Position numbers and translations under genes: made by a program
The notes under the pieces: model-generated
What the model saw: the letters and a program-made list of their open reading frames with translations, nothing else
Database searches by the model: none
Told to the model about the DNA's origin: nothing
Virus record (IMG/VR): IMGVR_UViG_3300027899_000085
Span: 1-20,786 of that record
Length of the DNA: 20,786 nt
Source: a virus
Direction: 5' to 3' (one strand)
Shown here: positions 1,691 to 8,479 of the stretch, piece after piece
Numbering within the stretch: the first letter of the stretch is position 1
Layout of the letters: every line of letters begins with the position of its first letter

Positions 1691-1815
1691 AATTTTAAAA
1701 AACATACTTAATATTCATTTATTCTGACAAATAAACTTTTCGCAGTGTGTCAGCACCACCAATTATCCCGTACTAAGTTGTACTAGAATAACTGTCAAAT
1801 ATGTTTTTTAAAATT
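1691..1815 (-). ncRNA. Structured RNA module A (21-bp closing stem)
   Basis: Positions 1691-1711 pair with 1795-1815 over 21 consecutive positions: 16 perfect Watson-Crick pairs (1691-1706/1800-1815) followed by five more, two of which are G-U only in the minus-strand RNA. Inside, 1719-1723 pairs with 1787-1791, 1724-1729 (CTGACA) with 1748-1753 (TGTCAG), and 1770-1773 with 1780-1783, giving a three-way junction. The block lies just before the tRNA-Thr gene. No open reading frame is visible in it, and I recognise no known RNA family. Confidence 0.55.
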
Positions 1816-1934
1816 AGGGACATATTTAAGGACTCTTACCCCACCATTTTACCAGTCCCATGCCAGACTGAAGTGTTTACTTTTGGTTAAAAACTTCACA
1901 ACCGATAAATCTATTCAAAAACAGTAAACGTTTA
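1816..1934 (-). ncRNA. Non-coding spacer with nested hairpins after the 68-aa gene
   Basis: There is no convincing gene here. On the minus strand GTTTACT (1923-1929) pairs perfectly with AGTAAAC (1875-1881) and encloses a GGTT/AACC hairpin (1885-1888/1900-1903). A second hairpin, 1852-1857/1866-1871, is a 5-bp CAGTC/GACTG stem extended by one G-U pair. It runs straight into module A and is probably the leader or first domain of the same RNA. The individual stems are short, so support is weaker than for modules A-D. Confidence 0.3.
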
Positions 1935-2141
1935 TTATTTGTCAAACAACTTTTCCATAGCGTACCTTTCTTCATTATTAAATTCAGCTTCAAGTTCTTC
2001 TTGATCCAAAGAAGACCAACCTGAATAATCATCATATACTTCAAACGAAATGCCCGTATAACCATTATCAGTTAAGCGATAAGACTTATCGTTAAATTTA
2101 ACTCTAAGCATTTTGTACATTATAACAGGAGCATTAATCAT
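1935..2141 (-). CDS. Small acidic protein of unknown function (68 aa)
   Basis: I do not recognise this 68-residue protein. It is acidic in its C-terminal half (D-Q-E-E-L-E-A-E-F-N-N-E-E-R-Y) and has an aromatic middle (YTGISFEVYDDYSGW), so it is probably a folded small cytosolic protein. There is no signal peptide, membrane segment or cysteine. The gene is supported by its own early promoter (2174-2201) and by GAGGAAATAAA before the ATG, exactly as for two other early genes in the window. It sits alone between blocks of structured non-coding sequence. Early phage genes of this size often act on host machinery, but nothing here says which. Confidence 0.75.
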   Translation of the reverse strand: MINAPVIMYKMLRVKFNDKSYRLTDNGYTGISFEVYDDYSGWSSLDQEELEAEFNNEERYAMEKLFDK

Positions 2142-2149
2142 TTTATTTC

Positions 2150-2201
2150 CTCATTTATTTAATTTATGAGTCTATTATAACACTTTTTCTGATAATGTAA
2201 A
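2150..2201 (-). promoter_or_regulatory. Early promoter with leader inverted repeat, copy 1
   Basis: On the minus strand, -35 TTTACA (2196-2201) and -10 TATAAT (2174-2179) are 16 bp apart, within a GTTTACAT context like T4 early promoters. Immediately downstream, CTCAT (from 2170) and ATGAG (ending 2150) form an inverted repeat around an A/T loop. Its second arm contains the GAGG ribosome-binding site. The 33 nt from the -10 box onward recur at 3216 and 7961 with one difference in all. Confidence 0.85.
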
Positions 2202-2221
2202 CGTTTATTTTCACTTATTTT

Positions 2222-2299
2222 AAAGTATTTCAACACACATCGTCCACTGTGACCTTAAAGTGTGCAAAGGTTAATTGATACAATCAACCCAAATACTTT
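2222..2299 (-). ncRNA. Structured RNA module D (three-way junction)
   Basis: AAAGTATTT at 2222-2230 pairs with AAATACTTT at 2291-2299. Inside, 2269-2277 pairs with 2281-2289 in a 9-bp hairpin with a 3-nt loop; the one non-Watson-Crick pair is G-U on the minus strand and A-C on the plus strand. A second arm, 2233-2238/2260-2265 (GCACAC with GTGTGT), again has its terminal G-U only on the minus strand. No coding potential is seen. The right arm overlaps the left arm of module B by 2 nt. Confidence 0.5.
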
Positions 2300-2389
2300 T
2301 AATAAAACACACTATAGAATAGTTTTAGTCGCCTCTATTCTTAACGAGTAAGCGAATTTATATAAACTCGATTAATGTGTTTTATTAAA
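2298..2389 (-). ncRNA. Structured RNA module B (17-bp closing stem)
   Basis: A 14-bp perfect stem, 2298-2311 with 2376-2389, extends inward by three pairs to 2314/2373, the first a U-G on the minus strand. Two hairpins lie inside: 2316-2322/2335-2341 (7 bp) and CGAGT/ACTCG at 2345-2349/2366-2370. The three-helix junction plan matches modules C and D although the sequence differs. Confidence 0.55.
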
Positions 2390-2390
2390 T

Positions 2391-2488
2391 ACTTTTAAGA
2401 ATATACTGATTCGCATTAACACTGCGATTCGACACATTTTACCTTGCCCTTGCGGTCATGCTCCGCAGCTCAATATATTCTTAAAAGT
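2391..2488 (-). ncRNA. Structured RNA module C (19-bp closing stem)
   Basis: Positions 2391-2409 pair with 2470-2488: 15 perfect pairs, then a U-G (minus strand only) and three more. Two inner hairpins each have 5 bp and a 7-nt loop: TGCGG/CCGCA at 2451-2455/2463-2467 and TCGCA/TGCGA at 2411-2415/2423-2427. Those dimensions recall tRNA arms, but the tRNA consensus bases are missing. Between modules C and the tRNA-like gene, GCCG (2489-2492) and CGGC (2527-2530) close a further small domain. Confidence 0.55.
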
Positions 2489-2538
2489 GCCGTCTTTGAC
2501 TTCCGCTATGCAGTTGTCCCATCTTTCGGCATTGAAGT

Positions 2539-2610
2539 TATCACTAGAGTGAGTTGAACACTCATTCCCCGTATCTTTAGTACAGGATCCTACCATTAGA
2601 AGATAGCGAT
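2539..2610 (-). tRNA. tRNA-like gene, anticodon AAA (Phe?), no encoded CCA
   Basis: This 72-nt cloverleaf has acceptor ATCGCTA/TAGTGAT (one G-T), D stem TTCT/AGGA with AATGGT loop, anticodon stem CTGTA/TACGG with loop CTAAAGA, and variable loop GGAAT. Its perfect T arm is GAGTG/CACTC around TTCAACT, which fits the TTCRANY rule. U8, U33 and the loop GG are in place. The anticodon would be AAA, reading TTT (Phe), which is very unusual because Phe tRNAs carry GAA. CCA is not encoded, unlike the other tRNAs here. It lies 4 nt from tRNA-Asn. It may be a functional odd tRNA, a tRNA-like decoy or a pseudogene. Confidence 0.55.
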
Positions 2611-3205: not shown

Positions 3206-3215
3206 AATATAATTC

Positions 3216-3267
3216 CTCATTTATTTAATTTATGAGTCTATTATATACAGTTTTCAGAAAATGTATA
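3216..3267 (-). promoter_or_regulatory. Early promoter with leader inverted repeat, copy 2
   Basis: -35 TATACA (3262-3267) and -10 TATAAT (3240-3245) lie 16 bp apart on the minus strand. The CTCAT/ATGAG inverted repeat (3216-3236) and the GAGGAA that follows are identical to copy 1, and the upstream GTGAAAATAAA is also shared. It drives the 88-residue protein, the lipoprotein and probably the tRNA-Asn cluster. Confidence 0.85.
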
Positions 3268-3292
3268 CATTTATTTTCACTTTTTTTATCTT

Positions 3293-5956: not shown

Positions 5957-6583
5957 ATGACCAGCACAACTATTTATACCCCAATTACCCCTACCTATCT
6001 CTATATCAAAAAACATACAATTACAGGTCTAAAATATTTTGGTAAAACCATCAATGATCCCTATAAATATAAAGGATCTGGAGTTTATTGGAATCGTCAT
6101 ATAAAATTACATGGTAAAGAACATATAGTTACCTTATGGGTATCTGAGTTATATTATGATACTTCAATAGTTGAACCTGCATTGCATTTTTCAGAAGAAA
6201 ATAATATAGTTAAATCAACTGACTGGGCCAACCTAAAACCTGAAAATGGTTTAGATGGGGGAGGCGCACTATCAGAAGAAACTAAAGCTAAAATATCTGC
6301 AAGTGGAAAAGGTATAAAGAAAAAACATTTTTCAAAAAAAATTAAAGTTAACAATCTTAAACTTAGTAATAAACAAATTAAGACAAGAGAGTCATTTGCA
6401 AATAACATAATACAACTTCAATTAGATAAAAAAGAACGTAAAAGAGAATTAAATTTATGTTATAATGATTATTATAAATTTCTAGTTAAACGATATTATA
6501 ATTATAAATTACTACCCAAACCAAAAAAACATAATTTACAAATAATGCGCAAACTTATAGATAAAAAGTTATATAATTTGTAA
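5957..6583 (+). CDS. GIY-YIG homing endonuclease with NUMOD3-type DNA-binding repeat
   Basis: This 208-residue protein is the only plus-strand gene. Residues 14-29 (YLYIKKH...KYFGK) match the GIY-YIG core in the Y-L-Y ... Y-F-G form. E73 in VEPALHFSEEN suits the metal-binding glutamate, and N-L-K-P-E-N-G-L-D-G-G-G is typical of phage and organelle members. Residues 105-118 (LSEETKAKISASGKG) form a NUMOD3-like DNA-contact motif. The remainder is very basic. It is free-standing, not intron-encoded, and lies between two early units in reverse orientation, so it is most likely a mobile gene that spreads by cutting phage genomes lacking it. TAAGGA precedes the ATG. The C-terminus is unusually rich in Lys/Tyr/Asn and AT-rich codons, suggesting recent arrival or relaxed constraint. 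Confidence 0.85.
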   Translation: MTSTTIYTPITPTYLYIKKHTITGLKYFGKTINDPYKYKGSGVYWNRHIKLHGKEHIVTLWVSELYYDTSIVEPALHFSEENNIVKSTDWANLKPENGLDGGGALSEETKAKISASGKGIKKKHFSKKIKVNNLKLSNKQIKTRESFANNIIQLQLDKKERKRELNLCYNDYYKFLVKRYYNYKLLPKPKKHNLQIMRKLIDKKLYNL

Positions 6584-7948: not shown

Positions 7949-7960
7949 AATCTGGAATTC

Positions 7961-8012
7961 CTCATTTATTTAATTTATGAGACTATTATATACTAGTTTA
8001 CAATAATGTAAA
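7961..8012 (-). promoter_or_regulatory. Early promoter with leader inverted repeat, copy 3
   Basis: -35 TTTACA (8007-8012) and -10 TATAAT (7985-7990) have a 16-bp spacer on the minus strand. The CTCAT/ATGAG inverted repeat (7961-7981) with GAGGAA is the same as in copies 1 and 2, and AATAAACGTTTACATTAT matches copy 1. It starts the seven-gene unit ending in dsbA. Confidence 0.85.
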
Positions 8013-8029
8013 CGTTTATTTTTAACCTA

Positions 8030-8065
8030 AAATGAAATAGACTGTTTACTCAGGAGAAACTATTT
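8030..8065 (-). terminator. Possible weak terminator after the GIY-YIG nuclease gene
   Basis: AAATAG (8060-8065) and CTATTT (8035-8040) pair on the minus strand around an inner GTTT/AAAC pairing, and are followed by CATTTT. The first arm includes the TAG stop of the 139-residue gene. The stem is A/T-rich and the T run short, so it may be chance, but it sits between the nrd operon and the next promoter. Confidence 0.25.
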
Positions 8066-8479
8066 TAAATGATTTCTATGAACTTTAATTTGGATTATAC
8101 CATTATACCATAACGCAGGGTTTTCCAATACTTTATGATAAAATTGGAGTTCTGCCTCTCGATAAGAAAGGTTACCTTTGGAGTGACAGTACAAAAGAAT
8201 CTCACGGGTAAATTTATCTTCACCCATCTCTTTTACGTCATTTTGAAGTTCAGTAGAACTAGACCAGTATGTTCTCCAGTCTGATTCAACTAATGTTTTG
8301 ACTTTCTTTTTCTTCTTAATTCCAGACTTCAATAATACATTTTTAGTTGAAGTCTTTGTAAAATGAGATAGCTTTTTACCTATGTAGGCTCTACCTGTAG
8401 AAGTGTTGGTTATCTTATATACAAAACCAACACATTCAGGTAACTCAATTATTTCAGCATCCTTGTAATACCAAACCAT
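8060..8479 (-). CDS. GIY-YIG family nuclease (139 aa)
   Basis: Residues 18-34 carry the GIY-YIG signature as G-F-V-Y ... A-Y-I-G, followed by K-K. R92 in FTREILLYC and an acidic residue in the SYREAELQF helix (E108/E110) fit the catalytic Arg and the metal-binding Glu. N126 in WYNGII matches the conserved late Asn. A lysine-rich insertion (residues 51-61) follows the YIG strand. This compact single-domain type is common in T4-like phages. It lacks NUMOD repeats, so it may be a homing endonuclease of the Seg type or a DNA-processing nuclease for the phage itself. It is translated from the operon that carries nrdA, with its ATG overlapping the zinc-ribbon stop. Confidence 0.8.
   Translation of the reverse strand: MVWYYKDAEIIELPECVGFVYKITNTSTGRAYIGKKLSHFTKTSTKNVLLKSGIKKKKKVKTLVESDWRTYWSSSTELQNDVKEMGEDKFTREILLYCHSKGNLSYREAELQFYHKVLENPALWYNGIIQIKVHRNHLK

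Follow-up and report, generated by a model that had tools for sequence, protein, structure and literature searches.

Organization of the tRNA cluster

The window analysed here, a 20.8-kb IMG/VR fragment of an uncultured phage (20,786 nt in full), carries a cluster of tRNA genes interspersed with further small units (Table 1). In a preliminary description, made from the sequence alone, the interval 1691-2610 had been regarded as a chain of long-stemmed RNA modules. The tRNA gene at one end of this run, there taken for tRNA-Thr, is tRNA-Tyr(GTA). The four modules A to D of that description were borne out, but the same interval also holds E, PK and P, which it had not listed as modules; unit F lies just outside it. 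Modules D, B and C, the tRNA-like gene and tRNA-Asn indeed follow each other end to end, over 467 nt (2223-2689). Modules A to D are encoded between the phage tRNA genes and on the same strand, and this is likewise the case for all relatives found with the strict search pattern given below.

Table 1. Features of the tRNA cluster and of the units located within it
Feature	Position	Strand	Remarks
tRNA-Gly	1281-1354	minus	CCA encoded; ARAGORN and Rfam RF00005
tRNA-Pro	1359-1435	minus	CCA encoded; ARAGORN and Rfam RF00005
tRNA-Met	1442-1517	minus	CCA encoded; ARAGORN and Rfam RF00005
Unit F	1518-1608	minus	exactly fills the gap between tRNA-Tyr and tRNA-Met
tRNA-Tyr (GTA)	1609-1682	minus	
Module A	1691-1815	minus	21-bp closing stem (1691-1711/1795-1815), three hairpins
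Unit E	1816-1914	minus	conserved GGUGGGGUAAGAGUCC hairpin; remainder variable
68-aa ORF	1935-2141	minus	no PHROG match
Promoter of the 68-aa gene	2174-2201	minus	TTTACA-16-TATAAT, inside a repeated cassette
Module D	2223-2298	minus	8-9-bp closing stem (2223-2230/2291-2298), two hairpins
Module B	2298-2389	minus	17-bp closing stem (2298-2314/2373-2389), two hairpins
Module C	2391-2488	minus	19-bp closing stem (2391-2409/2470-2488), three hairpins
Unit PK	2488-2538	minus	H-type pseudoknot; links the tRNA-like gene and module C
Unit P, tRNA-like	2537-2611	minus	called tRNA-Phe(AAA); without CCA
tRNA-Asn (GTT)	2615-2689	minus	CCA encoded

The 68-residue gene inside the run has a promoter of its own, as had been suggested, and is found 97% identical in two IMG/VR contigs. 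Its promoter is part of a promoter-leader cassette that is repeated on the minus strand at 2144-2222, 3210-3288 and 7958-8022 (about 88% identical), combines sigma-70-like TTTACA/TATAAT elements with a Shine-Dalgarno sequence and has many copies in relatives. Elsewhere in the window, two ORFs (5957-6583, plus strand; 8060-8479, minus strand) resemble GIY-YIG endonucleases on reading by hand and are candidates for homing genes. A coding explanation for modules A to D was rejected, as the ORFs overlapping them are short and mechanical.

Closing stems and folding

Modules A to D are structured RNAs on the minus, that is the tRNA, strand. Their closing stems lie where they had been placed and have the expected lengths, although that of D is short. 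Compared with 200 dinucleotide shuffles each, the minus strand folds better than shuffled sequence in all four cases, with z-scores of -7.6 for A, -6.0 for C, -4.7 for B and -2.9 for D. The folding energies of the plus versus the minus strand are -22 vs -40.5 kcal/mol for A, -29.4 vs -34.9 for C, -19.3 vs -23.4 for B and -12.4 vs -21.7 for D. A stem scan over the 932 nt from 1683 to 2614 gave 41, 40 and 35 as the strongest scores; in 100 shuffles of this interval the maximum was 38 and none reached 40. The five base pairs by which the preliminary description had assigned the strand form G-U pairs when the minus strand is transcribed, whereas plus-strand RNA would have C opposite A. Its common junction plan holds as a similarity, but not as an identity, since inner hairpins number three in A and C and two in B and D.

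The remaining units are less uniform. Unit F, with a closing UUUUGC/GCAAAA helix and an inner GCAGC/GCUGC hairpin, is near-identical in two other contigs (L004 and L040), but it folds no better than shuffled sequence (z -0.6), so that the evidence for it is weak. The window copy of unit E likewise folds no better than shuffled sequence (z +0.7 over 1816-1935); the unit has a T-arm-like 7-nt loop, UAAGAGU, occurs in up to three copies per relative, and in an alignment of 11 distinct copies only 8 consensus pairs are supported. In unit PK the two helices are ACUUC/GAAGU and UGCCG/CGGCA, the first of which has two broken pairs in the window copy.

Several units contain loops that are complementary to each other. 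In module A the loops CUGACA and UGUCAG match in 6 of 6 positions, as kissing loops would (P 0.006 versus shuffled loops); in module B these are UCGCUU/AGGCGA (P 0.017) and in module C AGCAU/GUGUU. Together with a T-arm-bearing type seen in relatives, the T type, the complementarity within units A, B and C has P values from 0.0025 to 0.017 against shuffled loops. In D and F, kissing loops were not significant in this test or not seen on reading by hand. As these loops are invariant within their families, covariation is not informative on their pairing.

Selection on the RNA

Among relatives, the pairs of module C are kept in 98.4% of all pair cells, with five pairs changed on both sides and a covariation score reached in 0/500 shuffles. 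For module A again 98.4% of the cells are paired, four pairs are changed on both sides and the score was reached in 1/500 shuffles; for unit PK, with five relatives, the corresponding values are 94%, three pairs and 2/500. One pair is changed on both sides in module D (7 relatives) and two in the T type. Since these alignments hold five to seven sequences per family and the shuffles do not remove relatedness, we consider the covariation to be good but not final evidence for selection on the RNA. The earlier claim that selection acts at the RNA level agrees with the compensatory changes in A, C and PK and with the strand-specific G-U pairs. The modules are compact structured RNAs, with sizes in the range of about 75-170 nt, and appear to be under such selection.

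Occurrence in other phages and database searches

In addition to the window, about 25 contigs that carry a tRNA cluster were obtained from IMG/VR by searching with proteins and with stem patterns. The strict pattern TAATAAARCACATT..AGTGTGTTTTMTTA was found only within tRNA clusters, and there only on the tRNA strand. A looser control pattern lacking the CACATT part also gave many chance matches in contigs without tRNAs, demonstrating the specificity of the full stem. Of the distinct stems scoring at least 40, 28 lay near tRNAs and 2 elsewhere, the latter both in a simple repeat.

Outside of this material the search remained negative. A blastn search of 50,697 isolate phages, made with three different module sequences, gave no match, and the terminal stem pattern is absent from the bacterial and archaeal genome set. 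No Rfam family matched modules A to D; beyond the tRNAs, permissive E-values gave only chance matches. The tRNA model RF00005 finds unit P (2537-2611, 42 bits) and none of the modules A to D. The earlier suggestion of a structured phage RNA is supported by the covariation, by the lack of an Rfam family and by the lack of a similar sequence in isolate phages. One relative with modules A to D (L050) also carries a permuted tmRNA (RF04321, 7532-7790) and a Polynucleobacter-1 RNA (RF01718, 2634-2778), both on the minus strand, which hints at a freshwater betaproteobacterial host.

Exchange of cassettes and flush packing

The modules and their relatives form a family of RNA cassettes. In about 20 IMG/VR contigs, and there without exception within tRNA clusters, the same terminal stem, TTAATAAAACACATT/AGTGTGTTTTATTAA, closes interiors of six unrelated kinds, which amount to 16 distinct sequences. 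The modules are separate units of 75-135 nt that are reshuffled independently of each other and may stand single, as in L005. In two contigs (L041/L063) whose exonuclease and GroES-like genes are only 69% and 71% identical to those of the window, modules B and C match the window copies at 100% identity; B, including its loops, is 100% identical in seven other contigs, that is in eight in total. Such identity next to genes of about 70% means either that each module is passed on whole or that its sequence tolerates hardly any change; in both cases the modules resemble the surrounding tRNA genes in their behaviour.

Mobile DNA elements could likewise produce many interiors on one terminal repeat and modules much more similar than the genes beside them; the stems would then be terminal inverted repeats, and the cassette, of MITE-like or integron-like type, would move as DNA. 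We consider this very unlikely. The units are restricted to tRNA clusters and to the tRNA strand, their arms are imperfect in a strand-specific manner (G-U in tRNA-sense RNA, C/A in the other strand), neither target-site duplications nor a recombinase were noted, and the covarying inner hairpins require selection on RNA. Exchange may nevertheless use the stems as homology.

The units are packed flush. A tRNA lies downstream of 32 distinct modules; the distance from the module end to this tRNA is -3 to +8 nt for 16 of them, and others adjoin another module. In L044, the terminal CCA of the tRNA-Leu located upstream is part of the stem.

Likeness to tRNA

Some of the units resemble tRNAs themselves. 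In unit P the acceptor pairing extends to 9 bp, and its counterpart in L009 has a shortened anticodon region. The T type combines the T-arm with a long variable arm and a D-like loop that is complementary to its own T-loop. A tRNA-Asn(GUU) of L057 (2906-3015, minus of the stored locus) has the complete cloverleaf but lacks CCA, and its acceptor stem is 20 bp long; it is apparently an intermediate between a tRNA and a module. A path from tRNA to module by lengthening of the acceptor stem seems plausible. A different observation comes from L044, where the interior of a 169-nt unit (291-459, minus of the stored locus) contains the reverse complement of a tRNA T-arm plus CCA end (GGAGTTCGATTCTCCTCATAAGCCA on the opposite strand).

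Relation to GOLLD and ROOL

GOLLD and ROOL are structured RNAs of unknown function located close to phage tRNA islands, and GOLLD is one RNA of often more than 800 nt (PMC12286853). In these respects, structure and setting, they are like the modules, and they had been proposed as the nearest known kind, although a match to either could not be made. The Rfam models agree with the latter point, as neither GOLLD (RF02032) nor ROOL was matched in the window. The former was not supported: instead of one large ornate RNA, as in GOLLD, we find independent units of 75-135 nt. The association of the two is not empty, however, because GOLLD adjoins stem-closed units in some relatives. In a second group of relatives it was found in L049 (10548-11012), L079 (9716-10183, minus) and L061 (484-951), each time with an internal tRNA match and ending 3-4 nt 5' of a stem-closed unit, with tRNA-Val next after this unit. 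GOLLD and stem-closed units thus occur in common clusters. A scan of the larger relative records, in which the positive control did not respond, found no GOLLD.

This neighbourhood, and the complementary loops in A, B, C and the T type, might suggest a multimeric scaffold of the GOLLD/ROOL type with parts joined by kissing loops. We regard such an assembly as most improbable in view of the missing Rfam match in the window and of units that stand single (L005) or in changed order. Moreover, the complementary loops lie inside one unit, for which intramolecular pairing is the simpler explanation.

Comparison with the stable RNAs of phages T5 and T4

The nearest known kind are the small stable RNAs in the tRNA clusters of T5 and T4. 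In the T5 record (GenBank AY543070), RNAI, RNAIII, RNAIV, RNA1, RNA2, RNA2H and RNA3 are annotated between the tRNAs as stable or tRNA-like, under the label 'stable RNA with unknown functions', and no Rfam family covers them. In a blind stem scan of T5, RNAIII came out enclosed by a stem of 20 bp and RNAIV by one of 22 bp. Like the window modules, they are small, lie among phage tRNA genes and are encoded on the same strand as these. Their closing stems of about 20 bp are comparable with those of B (17 bp), C (19 bp) and A (21 bp), whereas D has only 8-9 bp. The interior hairpins covary in both, in A and C as in RNAIV, for whose family seven pairs are changed on both sides (0/500 shuffles). 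Further parallels are the mixture of stem-closed and tRNA-like members and the exchange of interiors within a constant outer stem: at the position of RNAIII, S113-like phages share the outer stem with T5, but their interior is unrelated.

The ends of the T5 RNAs are instructive. RNAIII ends exactly at the 5' end of tRNA-His, so that one unit is flush with a tRNA in T5, too; this end is probably an RNase P site. A 2-nt 3' overhang of RNAIII might suggest RNase III alone; this was rejected, because the 3' end coincides with the start of tRNA-His and is more simply explained by RNase P. The ends of RNAIV, which is distant from any tRNA, are staggered within its own stem with an offset of one nt, as expected for an RNase III-type cut.

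There are also differences. The window has AU-rich stems, one stem serves many interiors, four stem-closed units lie close together where those of T5 are single, and sequence similarity is lacking. A covariance model of T5 RNAIV (R1) found T5 and S113 only and had no match in the window or its relatives; the window units therefore belong to the kind, not to the T5 sequence family. Judged by their sequences, the window modules are new families of an old kind.

T4 RNAC and RNAD (species 1 and 2 RNA), of 139 and 119 nt, are likewise small stable RNAs within a tRNA cluster; they are expressed late and their function is unknown (PMC9697503, PMC3014915). RNAC carries a T-arm. Unlike modules A, B and C, both are without a closing stem of at least 17 bp, and they have no sequence similarity to the window modules.

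The comparison brought up one more, unannotated stem-closed unit in T5 itself (AY543070 35533-35427; L104 7428-7534, minus), with a stem of 20 bp and a length of 107 nt. It fills the space from promoter P14a to the 5' end of tRNA-Tyr and is 95% identical to a unit of S113 (L093 2983-3089). Studies using the T5-type tRNA-Tyr promoter region may contain this unit.

Proposed processing and possible function

We consider it probable that the window holds an array of separate small structured RNAs among tRNAs, made within one minus-strand tRNA transcript and belonging to the stable-RNA kind of T5 and T4. For the units of the window we infer transcription and excision, along the following lines. The cluster would be transcribed as one or few RNAs, each unit being an RNA cassette that is either folded like a tRNA or closed by a terminal helix of about 17-26 bp, in which case complementary hairpin loops are part of its compact interior. 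The RNase P cut at the 5' end of the next tRNA would free the flush units along with the tRNAs, and units that abut each other would be separated by RNase III-type cuts within the long stems. The remaining helix and the compact interior would then protect against exonucleases and give a stable RNA. In evolution, the outer stems would act as shared ends by which recombination swaps interiors between phages.

Another reading would stop at processing, with the stems serving as RNase III/RNase P punctuation or as protective leaders for the neighbouring tRNAs and the interiors without a job after release. The flush packing on tRNA 5' ends and the T5 unit that makes up the entire leader from P14a to tRNA-Tyr would fit to this. 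Yet the interiors are strongly conserved, up to the complete identity of B and its loops in eight contigs, the inner hairpins of A, C and RNAIV covary, loops are complementary, and in these clusters most tRNAs mature in the absence of a unit of this type. Hence, we regard processing as the sole role as rather unlikely.

If stable RNAs are released, as we favour, their setting points to a possible task. T5 tRNA-Tyr counters the retron-Eco7, and phage tRNAs act against tRNA-cleaving defences (PMC11555353, PMC10264068). The modules lie in the same kind of gene cluster, have tRNA-like members and plausibly share this pressure. Unlike those tRNAs they lack CCA and mostly also an anticodon arm, so that they cannot replace a cleaved tRNA. 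The location of the units, the resemblance of some of them to tRNAs, the rapid turnover of their interiors and the anti-defence use of the cluster hint at a possible role as decoy or in protein binding, in defence or translation control. Tentatively, the released units might be tRNA-like decoys that bind host tRNA-handling proteins or tRNA-attacking nucleases in defence. Somewhat more speculative is the idea that the terminal stem is a standard chassis for excision and stability, on which unrelated effector interiors, some of them acceptor-lengthened tRNAs, are swapped by recombination against tRNA-targeting defences.

By their anatomy, T4 RNAC and RNAD and the stable RNAs of T5 become linked to a wider set of stem-closed cassettes in uncultured phages, none of which is in Rfam. 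The mode of their evolution is a constant terminal stem with exchanged interiors, and a route for their excision is probable. Since T5 and the S113-like phages, which infect E. coli and Salmonella, share this architecture, the old question for the function of these RNAs becomes testable.
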